From assembly GCA_902771735.1 (NCBI GenBank), contig CACXXO010000015.1, forward strand, positions 1 to 54,535: DNA of 54,535 nucleotides, in the 5' to 3' direction. The position numbers and the translations under genes were made by a program. Positions 22,951-32,234 of the stretch are shown piece by piece. A model generated the notes under the pieces. The model searched no databases, was not told where the DNA came from, and was given only the letters and a program-made list of their open reading frames with translations. Each line of letters starts with the position of its first letter. Position 1 is the first letter of the stretch. This DNA is from an uncultured Bacteroidota bacterium. Lineage in GTDB: Bacteria > Bacteroidota > Bacteroidia > Bacteroidales > P3.

Positions 22951-22974
22951 GAGCCCGATGAATCGGGCTTTTTT
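22951..22974 (+). terminator. Rho-independent terminator
   Basis: Stem 22952-22958 / 22963-22969 (AGCCCGA with TCGGGCT, 4-nt loop) followed by TTTTT. It ends the 45-residue gene unit and stands only a few nt before the Nudix start codon. Confidence 0.9.
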
Positions 22975-22981
22975 AGTATTT

Positions 22982-23455
22982 ATGAAACAGACGACCCTTT
23001 GCTATATTGACAACGGTGACAGCTACCTGATGCTGCACCGCGTGAAGAAGGAGAACGACGCCAGCCACGGCAAGTGGATAGGCGTGGGCGGCAAGTGCGA
23101 TGCCGACGAGAGCCCCGACGAGTGCATGCTGCGCGAAGTGAAAGAGGAGACTGGCTTGGAAATCACCCAGTGGCACTATCGCGGCATCGTCACCTTCATC
23201 TCCGACACCTGGCCCAACGAGTACATGCACCTCTTCACCGCCACTGCCTGGCGCGGCGAGCCCGACATGAGCATCGACGCCGAAGGCGAGCTGGCATGGA
23301 TACGCAAGGCCGACCTGATGGGGCTGAACCTTTGGGAGGGCGACAAGATATTCCTGCGCCTGCTGTTGGATGAGCAACAGCCGTTCTTCTCCCTCAAGCT
23401 CGTCTACGAGCAGGATGAAATGATAAGCGCCACCCTCAATGGAAAGACATTATAA
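22982..23455 (+). CDS. Nudix hydrolase (8-oxo-dGTP diphosphatase-like)
   Basis: 157 residues from the ATG at 22982; an in-frame ATG at 22958 lies inside the terminator hairpin and is unlikely. The Nudix box is complete: GKCDADESPDECMLREVKEETGLEI (about residues 40-64, written here only as its pattern GX5EX7REX2EEXG). The start MKQTTLCYIDNGDSYLMLHR is typical of MutT-like 8-oxo-(d)GTP diphosphatases that sanitise the nucleotide pool, but the substrate is not proved by sequence. The start lies just 8 nt after the T-run of the upstream terminator, so it probably has a promoter overlapping the preceding gene or depends on read-through. Confidence 0.88.
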   Translation: MKQTTLCYIDNGDSYLMLHRVKKENDASHGKWIGVGGKCDADESPDECMLREVKEETGLEITQWHYRGIVTFISDTWPNEYMHLFTATAWRGEPDMSIDAEGELAWIRKADLMGLNLWEGDKIFLRLLLDEQQPFFSLKLVYEQDEMISATLNGKTL

Positions 23456-23518
23456 TCAAATAATATTCTAAACATACACTTATTCTGCTGGCATCGGCAA
23501 AATTTTTTCTGCCCCTGG

Positions 23519-25303
23519 TCAATAGCCGACAATAGTGAAGCGGTTCCAGACGGGGTCGCTGCGATAGGCGTTGACGGAGGCCTTGGGGACGCGGAGTCGC
23601 ACGCCGTCGGGCATGCCGTCGAAGGAGGTTACCACCACTTGGGGCGGTAGGGAGGCTTGGACGGTGACTTCCTCGAGCTCATAGCAGTCGGCGAAGGCAT
23701 AGGTACCCACGAAGCTGACAGCAGGACCGAGTGCGATGCGGCGCACGTGGTTGTTGTAGGCGAAGGCATAGGTGCCGACGACCTGCAGAGAGTCGGGGAG
23801 CACGATCTCGCGCAGGTCGCACTCGTAGAAGGCAGCGTGCTCGATGACACGCAGCGACGAGGGCCAGCGCACAGCGGAAAGGCTGCTATCCATAGCAAAG
23901 GCATCGCGGCCGATGGTGACAACGCCGTCGGCGAAGTACACAGACTCCAGCACGCGGATATTGTTGAACGTCCTCGTTGCTGCCACCGAGACGCCGGGGC
24001 CGATGACGACCTTACGTAAGGAGAGGCAGCGATAGAAGCATTGCTTAGCCTCATTTGAGACGTTGCAGCTGTCGGCCAGCCAACGTACGGCGGGGATGCC
24101 GCTGCAGTCGGTGAAGGCGTCGTCGCCAATCAGACGCAGCGAGCTTGGGATGACGAGGGTATCCTTCATGGCCGGGCAGCCGGCGAAGGCGCCGGCGCCG
24201 ATGCGCAGCAGTCCTTCGGGGAGGGTCACGCCGGTGATGAAGCTCTGGTTATGGAAAGAGTGCTCGCCGATTGAGACGAGGTCATAATCCAAACCCAGAT
24301 GGCGTATGGTGGGCGGAATGTCGAGGTGGCCCTGCAGCCTCTCGAGGTCGCCCGGCCACTCCTGATCATCGGTGCCAGCATATACCAAAGCCACCTGCCG
24401 ATGCGGCACATGCTGCAGAACACGATAGTAGACCGTCTGGCCGGAGGGCAGGACGAGGCTGTGGACGATGGGCAGCGGGAAGAGCACGGGGTAGACCGCC
24501 GCTGCCAGCAACAGGAGCACCAGTAGCGATATCCACCATCGCGGGTGCATCATACGGCGCAACGCGGCCACCGACTGGGGCCGCTTTTGCGGGTCCTCGC
24601 GCATGGCGCAACGCGCCGCATGGCGGTAGCGGCGGCCCATGAGGGACTTCAGGATGCATCCCAGGGCGTAGATGTCGGCGCGGTGGTCGGCTGTGGTGCC
24701 GGCCTTCTGTTCGGGAGCGGCGAAGCCGTCGCTGCCGGCGCTGTGCTTGAAGGCGGCGTACTGGGGGCCGTCGCTGAGGCCGAAATCGATGAGTTTCAGG
24801 CGGCCGTCGTGGGCGATGATGATATTGGAAGGCTTGATGTCGTGATGGTAGATGCCGTGGTGGTGGAGATAATCGACGGCATCGAGCAACTGGGAGAACA
24901 TCGCGCGGACGTCGGCGGCAGACTTACCCTGCCTCCATTGGTCGAGGGTTTGGCCCTCCACCCACTCCATCACGATACATCGGCCCACCACGTTGTCGTC
25001 CTCGAGGCTTTCCACGCGGACGATGGCGGGATGGTCGAGAGAGACCCCCACGCTGTATTCCTTGTAGAGCCACTCGTCGTAGAGGGGGTTGGAGCGCAGC
25101 TCGTCGCGTATGCCCTTGAGCACATACCAGCGGCCGTAGCGGCGGGCGCGGAAGAGCACGTGCGTGGAGCCGCGGGCGATTTCCTCATAGTTGGAGAAGA
25201 AAGGCTCGGTGATGCCGCTGCCGCCGGAGACGAGACCCGACGGGCCATCGACGAGCGACGAGGGGTGATTGGCAGTATTGGCAGTATTTGAGTTGATATT
25301 CAT
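23519..25303 (-). CDS. Ser/Thr kinase fused to leucine-rich repeats across the membrane
   Basis: 594 residues from the ATG at 25303. An eukaryotic-type kinase domain (about 38-255) with Lys63 (VLKG), catalytic loop HHDIKPSN (Asp155, Asn160; HHD instead of HRD) and DFG at 173-175; then a membrane helix (about 256-276) and an external region with BspA-like LRR_5 repeats (about 320-590, e.g. IPSSLRLIGDDAFTDCSGI, LPDSLQVVGTYAFAYNN). It looks like a sensor with an outside recognition domain. A GTG start at 25339 would add 12 residues with a CPCPKC motif, but would leave almost no leader after the -7 box at 25351; I prefer the ATG. It is convergent with Nudix and divergent from the putative regulator. 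Confidence 0.88.
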   Translation of the reverse strand: MNINSNTANTANHPSSLVDGPSGLVSGGSGITEPFFSNYEEIARGSTHVLFRARRYGRWYVLKGIRDELRSNPLYDEWLYKEYSVGVSLDHPAIVRVESLEDDNVVGRCIVMEWVEGQTLDQWRQGKSAADVRAMFSQLLDAVDYLHHHGIYHHDIKPSNIIIAHDGRLKLIDFGLSDGPQYAAFKHSAGSDGFAAPEQKAGTTADHRADIYALGCILKSLMGRRYRHAARCAMREDPQKRPQSVAALRRMMHPRWWISLLVLLLLAAAVYPVLFPLPIVHSLVLPSGQTVYYRVLQHVPHRQVALVYAGTDDQEWPGDLERLQGHLDIPPTIRHLGLDYDLVSIGEHSFHNQSFITGVTLPEGLLRIGAGAFAGCPAMKDTLVIPSSLRLIGDDAFTDCSGIPAVRWLADSCNVSNEAKQCFYRCLSLRKVVIGPGVSVAATRTFNNIRVLESVYFADGVVTIGRDAFAMDSSLSAVRWPSSLRVIEHAAFYECDLREIVLPDSLQVVGTYAFAYNNHVRRIALGPAVSFVGTYAFADCYELEEVTVQASLPPQVVVTSFDGMPDGVRLRVPKASVNAYRSDPVWNRFTIVGY

Positions 25304-25350
25304 TGCACTACACTTCGGACAAGGGCATTGTGAGGTCACTTATTGAGGAT

Positions 25351-25359
25351 GCAAAGATA
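25351..25359 (-). promoter_or_regulatory. -7 box of the kinase gene
   Basis: Reverse complement reads TATCTTTGC. A TTG at 25379-25377 lies 17 nt upstream. It is 35 bp from the shared 16-bp site at 25394. Confidence 0.55.
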
Positions 25360-25393
25360 CGAAAAAAAAGCAAGAGCAAGGGTAAAAAACAAT

Positions 25394-25409
25394 ACGGACC
25401 AAAACGGAT
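25394..25409 (+). promoter_or_regulatory. Shared 16-bp direct-repeat site, copy 1
   Basis: ACGGACCAAAACGGAT, containing ACGGA twice with starts 10 bp apart. It ends 1 bp before the -33 TTG of the promoter that drives the 25454 gene. The identical 16 bp stand at the same place upstream of the radical SAM gene (26163-26178). Probable transcription-factor site. Confidence 0.7.
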
Positions 25410-25410
25410 A

Positions 25411-25442
25411 TTGCACGATTGAAGAAAAAAGTGTAATTTTGC
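25411..25442 (+). promoter_or_regulatory. Promoter of the putative regulator gene
   Basis: -33 TTG (25411-25413), 20-nt spacer, -7 TAATTTTG (25434-25441). Leader of only about 5-10 nt before the ATG at 25454. Confidence 0.7.
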
Positions 25443-25453
25443 AGCCGAAAAAT

Positions 25454-26035
25454 ATGGACAACAACGACACTCATCTGGACACCCTGCGCCGCCTTGTCTG
25501 CGAGGCGGCGGGTTGCGAAGCGCGCACGCCTGGCGACTTCTATACCCTGACGGCATTCGTAGAAGGGCGCACACGCGAGCCGATTGGACTCACTACGGTG
25601 AAGCGCTTTTGGCAGTATGGCGGCATGAGCTCCGTCCCGCGCCGGGGGACGCTGAACCTGCTGGCGCGTTCGATAGGTTACCGCAACTATGACGACTTCT
25701 GCGAGCACCACGGCGACAACACGCCTTCGAGCGACCCCGTTCTTGGGCAGGGCGTCAAAGTGGCCGACCTGCTGCCGGGCGAGTACCTGCAGCTTCGTTG
25801 GAACCCCGGACGCGAGGTGGTGGTGGAATATCTGGGCAACAGCACCTTCAGGGTCGTTATGAGTGAGGGCAGCAAGCTACAAGCCGACGATACCTTCCAG
25901 GCGGCATTCTTCGCCCTGGGGCACCCTGCGATGCTGGCCAACGTGATCCATGGAGATTCCAGCTGGCCGCTGTACGAGATAGGGCAGCTGGGAGGGCTGA
26001 CCATGGTGCGCCAGTTGCCGTCTCAAGGTGAGTGA
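25454..26035 (+). CDS. Putative DNA-binding regulator, Bacteroidota-type
   Basis: 193 residues from the ATG at 25454. The N-terminal part (about 5-85) has a helical pattern GLTTVKRFWQYG...PRRGTLNLLARSIGYRNYDDF that recurs, as I recall, at the start of many uncharacterised Bacteroidota proteins and looks like a helix-turn-helix unit (TLNLLARSIGYRNY as recognition part). The C-terminal part (about 98-190) is a beta-rich domain with VADLLPGEYLQLRWNPGREVVVEYLGNSTFRVV. No Pfam name is known to me. Its promoter carries the 16-bp site also present at the radical SAM gene, which suggests it regulates itself and that gene. It has its own terminator at 26109. Confidence 0.75.
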   Translation: MDNNDTHLDTLRRLVCEAAGCEARTPGDFYTLTAFVEGRTREPIGLTTVKRFWQYGGMSSVPRRGTLNLLARSIGYRNYDDFCEHHGDNTPSSDPVLGQGVKVADLLPGEYLQLRWNPGREVVVEYLGNSTFRVVMSEGSKLQADDTFQAAFFALGHPAMLANVIHGDSSWPLYEIGQLGGLTMVRQLPSQGE

Positions 26036-26108
26036 TTATCTCGCACAAAAAGGCATAGGCTGACTCCAAAAATATGTAAACGGCGACCTTTCTGACACAT
26101 ATCCATTG

Positions 26109-26134
26109 GGCTTCCCGGCAGGAAGTCTTTTTTT
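26109..26134 (+). terminator. Rho-independent terminator of the regulator gene
   Basis: Stem 26109-26115 / 26121-26127 (GGCTTCC with GGAAGTC, one G-U pair, 5-nt loop) followed by seven T. It isolates the regulator from the radical SAM gene. Confidence 0.75.
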
Positions 26135-26162
26135 ATTGTGTTAAGTTATAACATATTACAAA

Positions 26163-26178
26163 ACGGACCAAAACGGAT
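26163..26178 (+). promoter_or_regulatory. Shared 16-bp direct-repeat site, copy 2
   Basis: ACGGACCAAAACGGAT again, identical to 25394-25409, and directly followed by the -33 TTG (26179-26181) of the radical SAM gene promoter. Confidence 0.7.
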
Positions 26179-26210
26179 TTGGATTACTGCACTATACTTC
26201 CGAACTTTGC
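26179..26210 (+). promoter_or_regulatory. Promoter of the radical SAM gene
   Basis: -33 TTG (26179-26181, within TTTGG), 20-nt spacer, -7 GAACTTTG (26202-26209), one base off TAnnTTTG. The geometry equals that of the regulator promoter. A strong GGGAGG ribosome-binding site, rare in this window, follows at 26225-26231. Confidence 0.7.
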
Positions 26211-26238
26211 ATTGCAATTTATAAAGGGAGGAAAACCA

Positions 26239-27798
26239 ATGAGCAACAAGATATTCTTCCGTCCGCCATGGACCTGCGGCAAATACAACGCCGAAAAACA
26301 TGTGGCCATCATGTTCAACCTGCTGTCGAGAATGAATTACTTTTTCGAGGAGGAGAGCGCTGATGTGGTGGGCATGGTGTTGGCTGCCGGGCGTGGTGGC
26401 AAGGTGAGTATTGACGAGGTGTCGGACAAACTGATGATTGCCGACACATCAATCAAACCCTTCTTTGAGCAGCTCTGCTCGCTGCGACTGCTTTCAGAAA
26501 GGGAGATAACCGACGAGGTTGTTGCCGAATACCGAAAGGAGTGTCTCGGGCTCCCCGCGCCTCCAGCAGCAAAGGCGTATACTGAACGGCTGAAAGAAGA
26601 AGGGGTGTTGTCGGCCAGCCAAGCCTACGCAGATGTGGTATGTGAACGTGGTGTGGTTTATGATGTGGCGTTTGAGTTGACTTACAGATGTTTTGAACAG
26701 TGTATTCACTGCTACAACCCCGGAGCCTCACGCAATGAAACCGAACGTAACGGTCGAGGGGACACTAAAGAATTGTCTCTGGAGGATTACAAGAATATCA
26801 TTGACGACCTCTGTGACCATGGACTCGTTGCTGCATCTCTCACTGGCGGAGACCCCTTCATGCACCCATTTGTGTGGCAAATCATAGACTATCTCTATCA
26901 AAAGGACATTGTCATCACAATATTGACCAATGGAATCGGATTATTGGGGAAAGAACAACGTTTGGCAAATTACTTTCCCTATCATGTACAGTGTTCTCTC
27001 TATAGTGGCGAAGCCCAAATACACGATAGTATCACACGAACACATGGCTCATGGCAACGTACTGTGTCTGTAATGGACAAGTTGCATGAATTAGGGGTCC
27101 CTATCGATATTGCATGTCCACTAATGCAAAACAATCTTAAGAGCTATCATTCCGTAAAATCCTATATTAAAAAATACGGTTCGTCAAATGCGTTTGATGT
27201 GATGCTCACCGACTCTCTTGACGGCGATAAGTGCGTGTCACATCATCTCCGCCTCACCCCGGAACAACTCGAAGTTGTACTGATGGACGAAGATGTCATA
27301 CAACACATCAACATTAGTAGTACAGCTGACGATAATTACACTGACAAAGGCATTACCGATGGTGCACCTTGCGGGGCATGCAAAAACTCACTCTGCATTA
27401 ATCCAAACGGCGACGTAACTCCTTGCGTGGCATTTAACAAAGTGCTTGGAAACGTACTTGAAAAAAAAGTGAGTGAGATTGCGATGACCAATCTTTTTAT
27501 CGAGCAATGGCTTCAAACAAAAGCCGATGATTATAAAGAATGTTTTACGCATAAATACTGTGACTATTGCATACCATTTTGCCCTGGCAACAACTACAAT
27601 GACCGAGGTGAACCCTTGAATGGGGGAGAGAACAATTGCTACCTTGCAAAGATTCGTTATAATACAAGGATGAAGATATTGGCGGGTGAAGATGTATTAC
27701 ATGGCAAAACGATTGAAGAACGTATCAATGAGTTGTCGGTAACGGACGACAAACTGCAACATGAATACATAGAAAAGGGCAAGTTGGAGACCCTGTAA
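26239..27798 (+). CDS. Radical SAM/SPASM peptide maturase with N-terminal RRE-like domain
   Basis: 519 residues from the ATG at 26239, chosen for the GGGAGG just upstream. Residues about 30-88 read like a PqqD-type RiPP recognition element (YFFEEESADVVGMVL...KVSIDEVSDKL...LCSLRLLSE). The radical SAM core has Cys151, Cys155, Cys158 (CX3CX2C) and GGDP at 203-206. The SPASM part has nine Cys (378, 381, 386, 396, 435, 441, 444, 448, 467), enough for two auxiliary Fe-S clusters. Such enzymes make thioether or carbon-carbon crosslinks in ribosomal peptides. A 41-residue Cys peptide gene follows after 29 bp. Codon use from about 26640 on is AT-richer than in the neighbours, a sign of transfer. Product class is unknown. 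Confidence 0.88.
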   Translation: MSNKIFFRPPWTCGKYNAEKHVAIMFNLLSRMNYFFEEESADVVGMVLAAGRGGKVSIDEVSDKLMIADTSIKPFFEQLCSLRLLSEREITDEVVAEYRKECLGLPAPPAAKAYTERLKEEGVLSASQAYADVVCERGVVYDVAFELTYRCFEQCIHCYNPGASRNETERNGRGDTKELSLEDYKNIIDDLCDHGLVAASLTGGDPFMHPFVWQIIDYLYQKDIVITILTNGIGLLGKEQRLANYFPYHVQCSLYSGEAQIHDSITRTHGSWQRTVSVMDKLHELGVPIDIACPLMQNNLKSYHSVKSYIKKYGSSNAFDVMLTDSLDGDKCVSHHLRLTPEQLEVVLMDEDVIQHINISSTADDNYTDKGITDGAPCGACKNSLCINPNGDVTPCVAFNKVLGNVLEKKVSEIAMTNLFIEQWLQTKADDYKECFTHKYCDYCIPFCPGNNYNDRGEPLNGGENNCYLAKIRYNTRMKILAGEDVLHGKTIEERINELSVTDDKLQHEYIEKGKLETL

Positions 27799-27827
27799 TT
27801 CTCCAGCGTTATTAAAACTTTAATAAT

Positions 27828-27953
27828 ATGAAAAAGCAGGAAGTTCTACTGAAAATCAGCATGGAAAGTTGCTATGCACAAGGTGTAAAATGCTTGAAAA
27901 AACCATCGACACCTAAGAATCACTCAGCATGCGGCCATCCTAAGGGAGCCTAA
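27828..27953 (+). CDS. Candidate RiPP precursor peptide, 41 residues
   Basis: ATG at 27828, TAA at 27951-27953. It starts MKKQEVLLKISMES, a short amphipathic leader-like helix, followed by a polar core with Cys15, Cys22 and Cys35 and the end SACGHPKGA. Spacings are CX6C and CX12C. It lies 29 bp behind the radical SAM/SPASM gene, on the same strand, with a strong terminator 14 bp after its stop. Size, position, Cys content and leader-like start fit a substrate of that enzyme. There is no GG or other obvious cleavage motif between leader and core, and no protease or exporter gene is adjacent. I know of no named family for it. Confidence 0.7.
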   Translation: MKKQEVLLKISMESCYAQGVKCLKKPSTPKNHSACGHPKGA

Positions 27954-27967
27954 CCTGTCGCCGTATG

Positions 27968-28000
27968 AAAGGAGGCTGCTGTTATTGCAGCCTCCTTTTA
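27968..28000 (+). terminator. Rho-independent terminator of the RiPP unit
   Basis: Perfect 12-bp stem 27968-27979 / 27987-27998 (AAAGGAGGCTGC with GCAGCCTCCTTT), 7-nt loop, the T-run being part of the arm (27996-27999). Confidence 0.85.
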
Positions 28001-28037
28001 AAATCAAAAACAATCAAACATCAAGATACACAGAAAA

Positions 28038-28652
28038 ATGAAAAAGATACTGCAAGAAGTAATCGACAAGGCCTATTCGAAGTGGCAACAGGGCATCGTG
28101 GCGGACGAAATCCCCACCACCAACGAGCGCACCATACAGGTCTACCTCGCCTACTACATCCTGCAACAGGGAAAGCCGCTGGAAGAGAACGGCGAGTATA
28201 AGCTCACGGTGCTGCTCGAAGAGAACATGGGAGAAATACACACCTGCAAGACCAATGGCATCGGTCGTTGCGACATTGTGGTGGAACTCGCCAGCAAAGG
28301 CAAGTCGGTACGTGCCGCCATCGAGATGAAACGTCCCGAGACAAAGGCCAATGCCATGAATGCCGCCACGACGGATGCCCGTTTTGCAGTATTGGCCGAC
28401 ATTGAGAACCTGGAACATTACGACGCCGACCTCAAATACGAGATTGCATATACCGATTATCATATTTTCCCGCACTCGAGAGAGGACATCAAATACAATA
28501 TCAGCGACGGGAAAAGCACGGTGAAGCACTACGAATACAAGAAGAAAGCCAAGACGGATATAATCGACCTAAAGGGCATATATACATTCAGCTGGGACGA
28601 CCTGCCACACGACAAGCCCGAACACTATTTCCTGAAACTGAGATTGAAATAA
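28038..28652 (+). CDS. PD-(D/E)XK nuclease-like protein
   Basis: 204 residues, no signal peptide. Glu30 in an N-terminal helix (NERTIQVYLAYYIL), Asp79 in GRCDIVVELA and Glu96-Met-Lys98 in AAIEMKRP give the E...D...EXK order of the PD-(D/E)XK fold, which includes restriction enzymes and many defence effectors. The rest is unlike any named family I know. It heads a four-gene operon (next start 3 bp after its stop) with a three-helix membrane protein and two small helical proteins. DNA or RNA cleavage is inferred from the motif only. Confidence 0.7.
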   Translation: MKKILQEVIDKAYSKWQQGIVADEIPTTNERTIQVYLAYYILQQGKPLEENGEYKLTVLLEENMGEIHTCKTNGIGRCDIVVELASKGKSVRAAIEMKRPETKANAMNAATTDARFAVLADIENLEHYDADLKYEIAYTDYHIFPHSREDIKYNISDGKSTVKHYEYKKKAKTDIIDLKGIYTFSWDDLPHDKPEHYFLKLRLK

Positions 28653-28655
28653 ACG

Positions 28656-28949
28656 ATGGCAATATTTCTCTGGTTATTCCAATTCATCAGTCCAATAACA
28701 TTTATCCTCGGAGGATTATATCTGCTCGAAGACCCCGATCCGTTGGCGCTCATCCTTGGTTGCATCGCCGCTGTCCTCGGCCTTGTGGTGGGCATAGTAG
28801 GCTGGGCAGACACGGTACCGCCGCGCTGGTTCTGGATCAAGAGCAGCATGAACCTCGCCGGCAGCCGCTTCATGACGGCCATCGGCTACGCCATCCAGTT
28901 CTTCTTCATCCCCGCAGCCGTAATTGGCATAATTGGATACTTCGGTTAG
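28656..28949 (+). CDS. Small membrane protein, three predicted helices
   Basis: 97 residues. Hydrophobic segments at about 5-24, 29-50 and 73-95, with short polar links (LEDPDP, ADTVPPRWFWIKSSMN). Unrecognised. It starts 3 bp after the nuclease-like gene and is followed 14 bp later by a helical repeat protein. As part of this operon it may be a membrane partner or effector, but nothing in the sequence shows which. Confidence 0.7.
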   Translation: MAIFLWLFQFISPITFILGGLYLLEDPDPLALILGCIAAVLGLVVGIVGWADTVPPRWFWIKSSMNLAGSRFMTAIGYAIQFFFIPAAVIGIIGYFG

Positions 28950-28963
28950 GTAATAATCGTTTT

Positions 28964-29272
28964 ATGGCACTCATTAACATCAACAAACTGAAAGAAAGCA
29001 CAGGCAAAGCCCTCAAGGACGCCTCGGAATGGACCACACAAGCCGCCAAAGACGCTTCCGAATGGACTTCGCATACTGCCAAGGAAGTGTCGTCTCAGAC
29101 ATCGAAACTAAGCTCCCAGGCCATCCGCGCCATGCTGAAAGGCGTAGACCTCGACGGGCTACTGGTTCGCATAGACGAATACCAGCAGAAAACAGGGAAG
29201 GATGCCTCCAAGCTCATCGAGTTCATCGGAAACCTCAAACAGCTGCAACAAGATGGAGCAAGAGAAGAATGA
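28964..29272 (+). CDS. Small helical protein with AKDASEWT repeats
   Basis: 102 residues from the ATG at 28964. Two near-identical repeats KDASEWT occur at about residues 18-24 and 29-35 in a stretch (10-55) rich in Ala, Ser, Thr and Lys with an 11-residue-like amphipathic pattern, then a second helical part (58-98, LVRIDEYQQKTGKDASKLIEFIGNLKQL). The pattern recalls LEA-like or membrane-surface helices. No family recognised. Its last 20 nt overlap the start of the next gene, so translation is coupled. Confidence 0.65.
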   Translation: MALININKLKESTGKALKDASEWTTQAAKDASEWTSHTAKEVSSQTSKLSSQAIRAMLKGVDLDGLLVRIDEYQQKTGKDASKLIEFIGNLKQLQQDGAREE

Positions 29273-29465: not shown

Positions 29466-29575
29466 GCATATTTTTTGCCAGTTGTGACATTTTATTACTT
29501 TTGCAATTATTATAAAAGTAATAATTATAATTCAATATTTTTTACTTTCAGACGCTTTGTTTTCAAAAAAAGTTG

Positions 29576-29584
29576 TATCTTTGC
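29576..29584 (+). promoter_or_regulatory. -7 box of the helicase gene
   Basis: TATCTTTGC, 43 nt before the ATG. A TTTG at 29556-29559 is only 16 nt upstream, shorter than usual. Confidence 0.6.
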
Positions 29585-29627
29585 ATTACGGAATTTACGT
29601 AATGACTTAAATGACTCTAAAAAGAAC

Positions 29628-32234
29628 ATGATGCAGGAACGAACCTTCGACCCTTGGCAGCAGGAGGCCATCGCCATCAGCGGTGGGCGGCACCTGGTGC
29701 TGGCGCCTCCGGGATGCGGGAAGACAGACATCCTGACGGAACGTGTAGTGCACGCGCACGAAAACGGCGTGGAATACCGAGACATGCTGTGTCTCACCTT
29801 CACCAACCGTGCCGCCAAGGGCATGGCCCAGCGCATTGCCGACCGTACAGGGAATCCCGTGCCGGACGACCTCTTCGTGGGCAACATCCACCGCTACTGC
29901 TCCCAAATGCTTTTCAACCAAGGCATTGTCAACCACAACAGCGCCATCATTGACGAAGGCGACGTGGAGAACATCGTGCAGGAGGAGCTCTGCAAAAAGA
30001 TGCATATTGAGAGCCACACCACGGAGCTGATGCGCTTCCAGCACGGTTTGCAGCAAATGACGCTTGGTATGCGCGGCGATCTGGTGCTGCACAACGAACT
30101 GTTTCACGCCGGAGGCGTGTCGAAACTCTGCGACGTGCTCGGCCGTCCATTCGACGAGGACAACATCGTGTCCATCTATGCCGACATCGACAACCTGATG
30201 CAGCGCTACAGTGTCCTCGAGGAGCTGGCGGCCGCCAACCTCATGCGTCTGGCCAAAGCCTACGAACGTTACAAAGAGGAGAACGACCTGCTGGACTATG
30301 ACGACCTGCTGATATTGGCCTACAGACATTTAACCGCAGCGCCAGCCGACATCCGGCGCTATCGATGGATTGAAATCGACGAAGTGCAGGACCTCAATGC
30401 CCTGCAATTCGCCCTGATCGACCTCTTTGCAGCACCCGACGCCACCATCGTATACCTCGGCGACGAGCAGCAGGCCATTTTCTCCTTCATCGGCGCCAAA
30501 CTCGAGACACTCGAAGCCCTCAAACAGCGCTGCTCCGGGCATATCCACCACTTGCACACTAACTATCGCTCTCCGAAATATCTCCTCGACCTGCAGAACG
30601 ATTTCGCCGTGCGCAACTTGGGCATCCGACGCGAGATGCTCCCCTCCACAGACCTCAACCCACCCCATGCCCACGAAGACCTCTGTCTGTTGAACGTCGG
30701 CGACGCACAAATGGAAAGCTACTATGCCGCCCGTTTCGCCAAACGCTATGGCGACCTTGACCCAGAAGGGAAAGTGGCCATCCTCGTGAGCACCAACCGC
30801 GAAGCCGACGACATCGGCGAGGTGATGGGCGGCATGGGAATCAGTCACTTCAAAATCAGCGGCACCGACCTTTTCTCGTTGCCCGCCATGCGACTGCTGA
30901 TAGCCCATCTCAGCGTGTTGACCGACGAGATGGTCTTCATTGCCTGGGCCCGGCTGCTCTGGGGCCTACATATACTGCCCACCTACACCGCAGCGCGAAA
31001 CTTCATGCGCGATATGCGGCGCGTGGCGCTGCTTCCCACCGACTTCCTTTTATACCCTGATTCCTCCTATTTACAAGAATTTGTCCATTCCTACGACGAA
31101 GAGGAACTTGTCATCTTCGACACCGAGACCACCGGTCTCGATGTCTACCACGACGACATCATCCAGATTGCCGCCGTCAAAGTGCGGCGAGGCAAGGTGG
31201 TGGGGGAACCTTTCAATATAATATTAGAGACCGACAAGGAACTACCCGAGACTGTGGGCGGCCACCCCAATCCCATGCTGGAGGTCTACCGCAACAGCAA
31301 ACGCCATTCCCGCACTGAAGGATTGCAAATGTTCATGGACTACTGCAAAGGCAAGGTGCTGGTAGGCCATAATGTGGAGTATGACTATCAAATCTTGCTT
31401 CACAATCTCAAAAACGACTGTCCCGATATCAATCTCACGCAAACCAATCCCCGCTATTTCGACACCCTGAAATATATCCGTCTTGTGCGTCCGCGGCTGC
31501 GACAGTACAAGTTAGTCCATCTCCTTGAAGTCCTTCACCTCGAAGGGCAGAACAGCCATCGTGCCGACGACGACATCCTTGCTACACTCTCTCTTCTCAA
31601 CTTCTGCCACCTCAACGCCATCCAGTTGGTCGCCGAGCAACGCCTTTTCATTGCCGACCATCAAAAACAAGTCGACCGGTTTCACGAACGATACTCCAAA
31701 CTGTATCTCTATCCGAACAAAAAGCAGGGCATCGTTGCAGAGCTACACCGTGCCTACAACCATTTCCTCGAGGCGCAACTCATCGACCCCATCGACAAGT
31801 GGCACCACCTCGTCCATTACCTCGAGAAAGACCTCATCCGTGCCGACCTCTACCCCACCCTGCAGCAACAATTGGAGCGCTACATCACCGACCTCAACAC
31901 CAGCAAGGAGGCCGACCTCTGCGGCGGCTCATTGGAGGAACGCTACATCATCTCCACCGTCCACAAAGCCAAGGGGCTGGAGTTTGACACCGTCATCGTC
32001 TACCGAGCCATCGACGGCAGCTACCCCGGCTCGCGCAGCTGGACCGAAAAACAGATACAGGAAGACGCGCGCCGTCTCTTCGTAGCCCTCTCGCGCTCGA
32101 AGAAACGACTCTGTATTATATATGACGAATATTACGGGCGTTCCACCCACGCCCTCAGCCCGTTCTTGGAGAAGGTCAAGGAGCATTTCACCGTCTACCG
32201 CCGGTTGCCAGACGGCAAGATTAGGCAGATTTAA
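29628..32234 (+). CDS. UvrD-type helicase with inserted DnaQ-like exonuclease
   Basis: 868 residues from the ATG at 29628. Superfamily 1 helicase motifs: Walker A APPGCGKT (26-33), motif Ia [20 protein letters not shown]-type IDEVQDL (about 250), [22 protein letters not shown]; then a DEDDh exonuclease domain (about 493-660: FDTETTGLD near 497, VGHNVEYD near 579, HRADDD near 644); then the last helicase motifs [16 protein letters not shown] (about 774) and [14 protein letters not shown] (about 815). The exonuclease is thus inserted between helicase halves. DNA unwinding with 3'-5' degradation in repair or defence is likely. It stops in a 3-bp overlap with the convergent queF. Confidence 0.9.

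Follow-up and report, generated by a model that had tools for sequence, protein, structure and literature searches.

A probable two-gene radical SAM peptide cassette of a so far unnamed family in an uncultured Bacteroidales bacterium

The locus

Here, we describe a pair of genes on contig CACXXO010000015.1 of an uncultured Bacteroidota bacterium of the order Bacteroidales (assembly GCA_902771735.1), the whole 54,535-nucleotide stretch being referred to as the window. In this gut or rumen bacterium, an enzyme gene and a gene for a tiny Cys-containing peptide lie side by side: the enzyme gene stops at a TAA, a 29-nt spacer follows, then a 41-codon open reading frame (ORF) and an intrinsic terminator (Table 1). 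We propose that the pair is a cassette for a ribosomally synthesised and post-translationally modified peptide (RiPP) of a so far unnamed family, in which the enzyme recognises the leader through an N-terminal RiPP recognition element (RRE) and its radical S-adenosylmethionine (SAM) core then joins Cys of the peptide to other residues. We put the probability of this at roughly 0.8.

An earlier note, written by a model from the letters of this DNA, had picked out the 519-residue enzyme with its CX3CX2C motif and nine SPASM-region Cys, the short gene with a leader-like start and three Cys, and a strong terminator, and this anatomy stands. The terminator hairpin, folded within 27955-28010, has 14 pairs and -24.7 kcal/mol (z -6.5), a stability that none of 200 shuffled sequences equalled. 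The window has no Rfam match at gathering scores. The two genes have a G+C content of 45.6% (enzyme) and 42.1% (peptide), against 53.2% for the window.

Table 1. Features of the locus and its surroundings, in window coordinates
Feature	Position	Strand	Remarks
RRE-radical SAM-SPASM enzyme	26239-27798	+	519 aa; RRE ~12-81, radical SAM core from ~140, SPASM ~378-470
Precursor peptide gene	27828-27953	+	41 aa; leader-like MKKQEVLLKIS, then core with Cys15, Cys22 and Cys35
Intrinsic terminator	27966-28000	+	hairpin folding; blastn homology to G013 resumes here (27970)
PD-(D/E)XK nuclease-like protein	28038-28652	+	204 aa; motif D79...E96-M-K98
16-base element ACGGACCAAAACGGAT	26163-26178	+	promoter region of the enzyme-peptide operon
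Second copy of ACGGACCAAAACGGAT	25394-25409	+	upstream of the kinase-partner gene
Kinase-partner protein	25454-26035	+	often adjoins the kinase in relatives
Ser/Thr protein kinase with C-terminal BspA-type leucine-rich repeats	23519-25339	-	slot neighbour; from Pfam
97-aa hydrophobic protein	28656-28949	+	right-hand slot border; in 10 of 83 loci, all of window type; border in L129 and L130

The enzyme and its predicted fold

The enzyme is a radical SAM/SPASM protein by sequence (Pfam Radical_SAM, E 4.7e-17; SPASM, E 5.8e-07). Its Cys151, Cys155 and Cys158 form the CX3CX2C motif and are invariant in 62 aligned sequences, and Pfam finds SPASM at E<=1 in all 62 homologues. The nine Cys of the SPASM region lie at 378, 381, 386, 396, 435, 441, 444, 448 and 467; in the same alignment C378, C396, C435, C441, C444 and C448 are invariant and C467 nearly so. 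Viperin models of PADLOC (PADLOC-DB of 2023) score the enzyme at 39.9-44.5 bits, as any radical SAM protein would be expected to, while the other five proteins tested have no PADLOC model at E<=1.

The structure model predicts, with high confidence, an RRE fused to a radical SAM/SPASM core. An RRE is defined as a winged-helix domain of topology βββ-ααα, according to PMC12710340, and the model has this topology, with strands at 12-17, 22-27 and 32-37 and helices at 38-49, 58-65 and 69-81. The earlier reading of an RRE-like N-terminus is thus borne out as a predicted fold, with a shift in position, from residues 30-88 to about 12-81, and without the PqqD likeness by Pfam: PqqD (PF05402) was not matched by the window enzyme at E<=1, nor was it among the best 25 of 55 families for the 62 homologues. 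By sequence, the region gave only weak winged-helix matches, among the 62 homologues and in a PDB sequence search. Sequence-divergent RREs are known to escape the PqqD model, again according to PMC12710340. The best structural matches of the enzyme are the RiPP maturases SkfB, ChlB, CteB and SuiB, with anSME tied. The alignment begins at residue 5 with SuiB and at residue 12 with SkfB, thus taking in the N-terminus, but only at residue 136 with CteB.

Spread of the family and conservation of the precursor gene

Beyond what had been noted for the window itself, the pair belongs to a family spread through the Bacteroidales, has recurrent partner genes, and shows a change of enzyme and peptide as one block. 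We compiled 83 loci: 80 kept of at least 112 relatives found by an alignment scan of genome contigs, the window, and two further loci. At E<=1e-50, enzyme homologues occur in 12 of the 190 family genomes and 7 of the 393 order genomes searched, and at E<=1e-20 in 11 of the 120 from the genus, the bacterium's own genome being counted each time. No homologue was found in viral contigs, searched with the enzyme protein and with the alignment, or in plasmids at E<=1e-30; a single-sequence pattern search of the genome contigs gave no match, and very close relatives of the window copy were not found. The family is one of Bacteroidales, its main type extending to an Ignavibacteria metagenome-assembled genome (L119).

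A precursor gene was chosen by a scripted picker in 73 of the 83 loci and by eye in four more (L092, L094, L106, L118). The six loci lacking one are L067, L100, L116, L122, and L102 and L121, both of which lie at contig ends. The earlier note had asked whether the small ORF is conserved beside homologues of the enzyme, and it is: an ORF with the leader and two Cys follows 69 of 78 enzyme ORFs (>300 aa) but only 4 of 592 other genes (>=150 aa) of the same loci, and the leader pattern alone follows 70 of 78 and 12 of 592, respectively. The patterns were written after the family had been seen, so these control counts speak to specificity. In 30 close peptide pairs, which are not independent, the pooled dN/dS is 0.22, the window type being represented by the L046/L047 pair only. 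By this measure the small ORF appears to evolve as a protein, a statement that holds mainly for the main branch.

The peptides fall into a main type and the type of the window. The main-type consensus is MKVELxISKxSxVVxMSxCPKxxExxCGIxYR, drawn from a table of 51 peptides that were selected by a CG/YR motif, so that conservation of the tail in that table is partly by construction. The unfiltered count for picked peptides not of window type is 52 of 61 with CG[IVT]x[YW][RQ], the picker having given extra score to CG/YR tail-type motifs, and 58 of 61 with at least two Cys after the leader. In the window type (13 loci), the leader is retained and the core is variable, rich in Cys and Lys, and often contains CSxQGVKCKK. 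Built from ten window-type peptides without the window copy, a profile picks the window peptide out of the window's 318 small ORFs at E 1.3e-7, the next-best scoring 0.93.

The window peptide and eight related peptides have no NCBIfam model match at E<=1, in keeping with the earlier judgement that the precursor belongs to no named family. Likewise, it has no GG site, and its three Cys fall short of the six of SCIFF peptides. We found no description of this enzyme-peptide family in the literature searched, which was that of open-licence papers, so that a subscription paper could be missed. The family of modified peptides thus appears to be undescribed.

Enzyme and peptide change as one block

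The sister species G013 has a slot of the same plan as the window, and its identity to the window changes along it. Identity is 93-99% at 25000-25999, 52-75% at 26000-26199 and 95% at 26200-26299; it falls to 43-71% over the stretch that begins near enzyme codon 45 and takes in the peptide, and is 94-100% at 28000-28699, homology by blastn having resumed inside the terminator. A drop of this kind between near-identical flanks means that the enzyme body and the peptide differ as one block. The difference would most simply have arisen by exchange.

Because both genes stay together and change together in relatives, the enzyme very probably modifies the peptide. That the peptide is the substrate had been the earlier note's proposal, and it gains from the recurrence of the pair, from the RRE fold of the model and from the block change. 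As for mechanism, we infer that the N-terminal RRE would bind the leader through a strand of the VEL/VLLKIS type, and that the radical SAM/SPASM core would crosslink core-peptide Cys with other residues, thioethers being the likeliest bond, with one or more of Cys15, Cys22 and Cys35 as the probable sites. The block change between near-identical flanks would then be natural evidence of enzyme-substrate specificity.

Partner genes beside the cassette

In main-type loci, a protein of about 280 aa is encoded downstream of the pair in 42 cases and an M42 aminopeptidase in 12, with one or the other present in 53; 79 of the 83 loci had a right flank of at least 1.4 kb. The M42 assignment was checked by Pfam for one member (E 4.2e-81). 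The ~280-aa protein (for example L111:8795-9628, adjoining a main-branch cassette) has no Pfam match in two members and no NCBIfam match in one, and its model (pLDDT 92.5) best matches SelO/YdiU (E 1e-8 to 7e-7; TM by query 0.51-0.60). Neither the SelO-fold nor the M42 gene occurs in any of the 13 window-type loci.

There, the partner is a PD-(D/E)XK nuclease-like gene, found upstream or downstream of the pair in 10 of 13 window-type loci and in 0 of the 70 others. In the window, Pfam PDDEXK_9 is matched at E 0.0025, under its cut-off, the motif residues are invariant in four homologues 31-99% identical to the window copy, and a PDB sequence search returned nothing relevant. These genes come in two versions with no detectable mutual similarity, each having the D...ExK motif. 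The window version is present in 5 of 119 genus genomes, four of which have the enzyme; in the remaining genome, G105, what comes after it is an enzyme remnant whose match covers no more of the enzyme profile than its first ~20 residues (E 9.5e-7).

Two side observations concern relatives. Four main-branch loci (L058, L059, L065, L070) encode a small protein that has an HExxH motif and, judging from the translation, is SprT-like; its gene lies some 4.4 kb downstream from where the enzyme starts. At L026 (G079:C24:24020-25009), a more distant radical SAM homologue has after it genes for a 71-aa protein and for a Cys peptide of 52 aa (MKNYKKVEMVAKN...), the latter with no NCBIfam match; perhaps this is another RiPP locus.

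A swappable slot beside a kinase pair

To the left of the cassette lie a kinase gene (Pfam Pkinase E 1.3e-32, LRR_5 E 5.1e-35) and the gene of its partner, each unmatched elsewhere in the assembly at E<=0.001, by kinase domain in the first case. The partner has no Pfam or NCBIfam match at E<=0.1, and we would guess at a regulator of the slot, perhaps DNA-binding. Three further sister species, G088, G043 and G068, have kept both kinase-pair genes and the helicase gene, and G043 and G068 the 97-aa gene as well; there, the kinase pair flanks other cargo. Homology to the window stops at about 26181, the last homologous piece before this being only 26-30 bases in G088 and G043, and resumes at 28656 (29469 in G088). 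From translations, the cargo of these three slots includes nuclease-like, OmpA-type and ion-channel-like proteins, among others; two of the nuclease-like proteins have no clear Pfam match. We read the kinase pair as the host of the slot, with the cassette as one of its interchangeable occupants. Alternative cargo of the slot lies at L129:1350-6270 and L130:1659-6814, namely several related small proteins and OmpA-type, ion-channel-like and nuclease-like proteins.

Linkage to the kinase as a fixed part of the system was considered and is weakened by the counts: in 32 of 83 loci a kinase-cluster gene is found within 5.5 kb, but in only 12 does such a gene end upstream, on the same strand and no more than 1.2 kb away. 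Of 119 genus genomes, 40 have the kinase partner, and just 4 of the 11 enzyme-bearing genomes belong to these 40.

One 16-base element is common to the promoter regions of the cassette and of the kinase-linked neighbour gene. With up to one mismatch, ACGGACCAAAACGGAT has exactly two sites in the 2.29 Mb assembly, and both recur, again with at most one mismatch, in G013, which has similar cargo, and in G088, G043 and G068. At up to two mismatches it was not found in the stretches examined of G070, G090 and G014, all of window type. As a family-wide operator it is unsupported: a test that does recover the 16-mer in the window gave, of 21 other kinase-partner loci, only L053 as beating all shuffles, by 11 bases to 10. 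A terminator-like site at 26108-26128, upstream of the enzyme, may end the upstream unit; the scan gave no more such sites than shuffled sequences did.

Further to the right, the window encodes at 29475-32234 a 919-aa protein whose translation resembles a UvrD-type helicase that carries a DnaQ-like exonuclease segment in mid-protein. A small protein with a KDASEWT-type repeat is encoded at 28961-29272 and from L043:9781 onward, the copy number of the repeat varying widely among relatives.

Possible roles of the product

If the pair is a RiPP cassette, what would its product do? The reading we lean to, at about even odds, is an intracellular product that works with the protein of the neighbouring gene. 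As the earlier note had said, no exporter or protease lies adjacent: none was recognised among the neighbours scanned with Pfam at 22958-29272, hence the suggestion of an intracellular site. Going by gene order, the partner would be the PD-(D/E)XK-like protein here and the SelO-fold protein or the M42 aminopeptidase in other branches. Taken together, the absence of known export genes among those recognised and the tight linkage to nuclease-like, SelO-fold and aminopeptidase genes would suggest an intracellular role for peptides modified by radical SAM enzymes.

The best-placed rival, which we regard as a minority prospect, is a secreted antimicrobial or signalling peptide, similar to a bacteriocin, which general machinery encoded elsewhere in the genome would export and trim. 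The high variability of window-type cores would fit this, as would an enzyme-peptide block that differs between sister species with near-identical flanks, in the way one would expect for competing bacteriocin types. Against it, the neighbour clusters common to at least 4 of the 83 loci, judged from translations and for a few by Pfam, include no recognised exporter, the nearest thing to one being an ABC-F-ATPase-like cluster (5 loci) with no membrane part. In addition, the tail motif of the non-window peptides, favoured as it was by the picker, looks like that of a fixed function rather than of an arms race.

A bolder extension of the intracellular role, and one of low probability, is that the modified peptide is a ligand or guard that sets how active the partner effector is, which would be the PD-(D/E)XK-like nuclease here and the small SelO-fold, AMPylase-like protein in the main branch. 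Enzyme and peptide would form a swappable specificity unit, and the slot would be switched with the kinase module through the shared element. If so, the RiPP would serve a defence or kin-recognition system as its sensor or safety catch instead of being secreted.

It is improbable, to our mind, that the peptide provides the scaffold of a small, cofactor-like product, as with PQQ and mycofactocin, the enzyme modifying its tail and a peptidase such as M42 freeing it. The M42 gene downstream in 12 loci, the rank of a mycofactocin maturase model among the enzyme's matches and the conserved CG-I-x-Y-R tail, which recalls the CGVY end of MftA, all lend it something, but the window type has neither the tail nor the M42 gene, and none of the nine family peptides tested matches an NCBIfam precursor model. 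That the peptide is no substrate at all, the small ORF being there by chance or as a regulatory leader ahead of the terminator, is very hard to credit: its Cys spacing is unlike that of the main branch and the main-type profile misses it (E 2.3), but recurrence beside the enzyme, the window-type profile, purifying selection (mainly in the main branch), the RRE fold and the block change all stand against this.

Thus, we favour a two-gene RiPP cassette, which would add to the Bacteroidales, where ribosomal peptides are little known, an apparently undescribed radical SAM family with a clear precursor consensus.

Comparison with known systems

By NCBIfam, the enzyme is far under the curated cut-offs of the 25 models among the matches listed. 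AlbA is the top model (97.6 bits against a cut-off of 850), the mycofactocin maturase MftC is second (82.6 against 265), and SkfB gives 45.9 against 300. In mycofactocin, the RRE is a separate protein, MftB, and the precursor MftA carries a CGVY tail; here the RRE is fused to the enzyme, and the CG-I-x-Y tail that recalls MftA is a feature of the main branch which the window peptide lacks. SuiB, the streptide maturase, is aligned with the model over 5-471 (SuiB 1-439, first and last residues), the RRE end included. SuiB joins Lys to Trp, and the window peptide, unlike a substrate of that chemistry, has no Trp.

Bacteroidales RiPP clusters with radical SAM/SPASM enzymes, from the same order, are described in PMC10352776. 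In that paper, GG-type features mark most of the precursors, and a peptidase-containing transporter belongs to seven of the nine clusters. At the window cassette neither was seen, which also tells against a secreted product. As for the main-branch partner, which is not in the window, eight of its nine best PDB matches are SelO/YdiU chains and the other is an uncharacterized protein, and it is shorter than SelO/YdiU (about 280 residues against 460-480) at 13-16% identity.

The sactipeptide and ranthipeptide maturases SkfB, AlbA and CteB share the RRE, radical SAM and SPASM architecture of the enzyme and likewise have a Cys-containing precursor adjoining. Unlike theirs, the window precursor has no NCBIfam family and no exporter or immunity gene was recognised beside it; the partners in the present family are instead nuclease-like, SelO-fold or M42 proteins.
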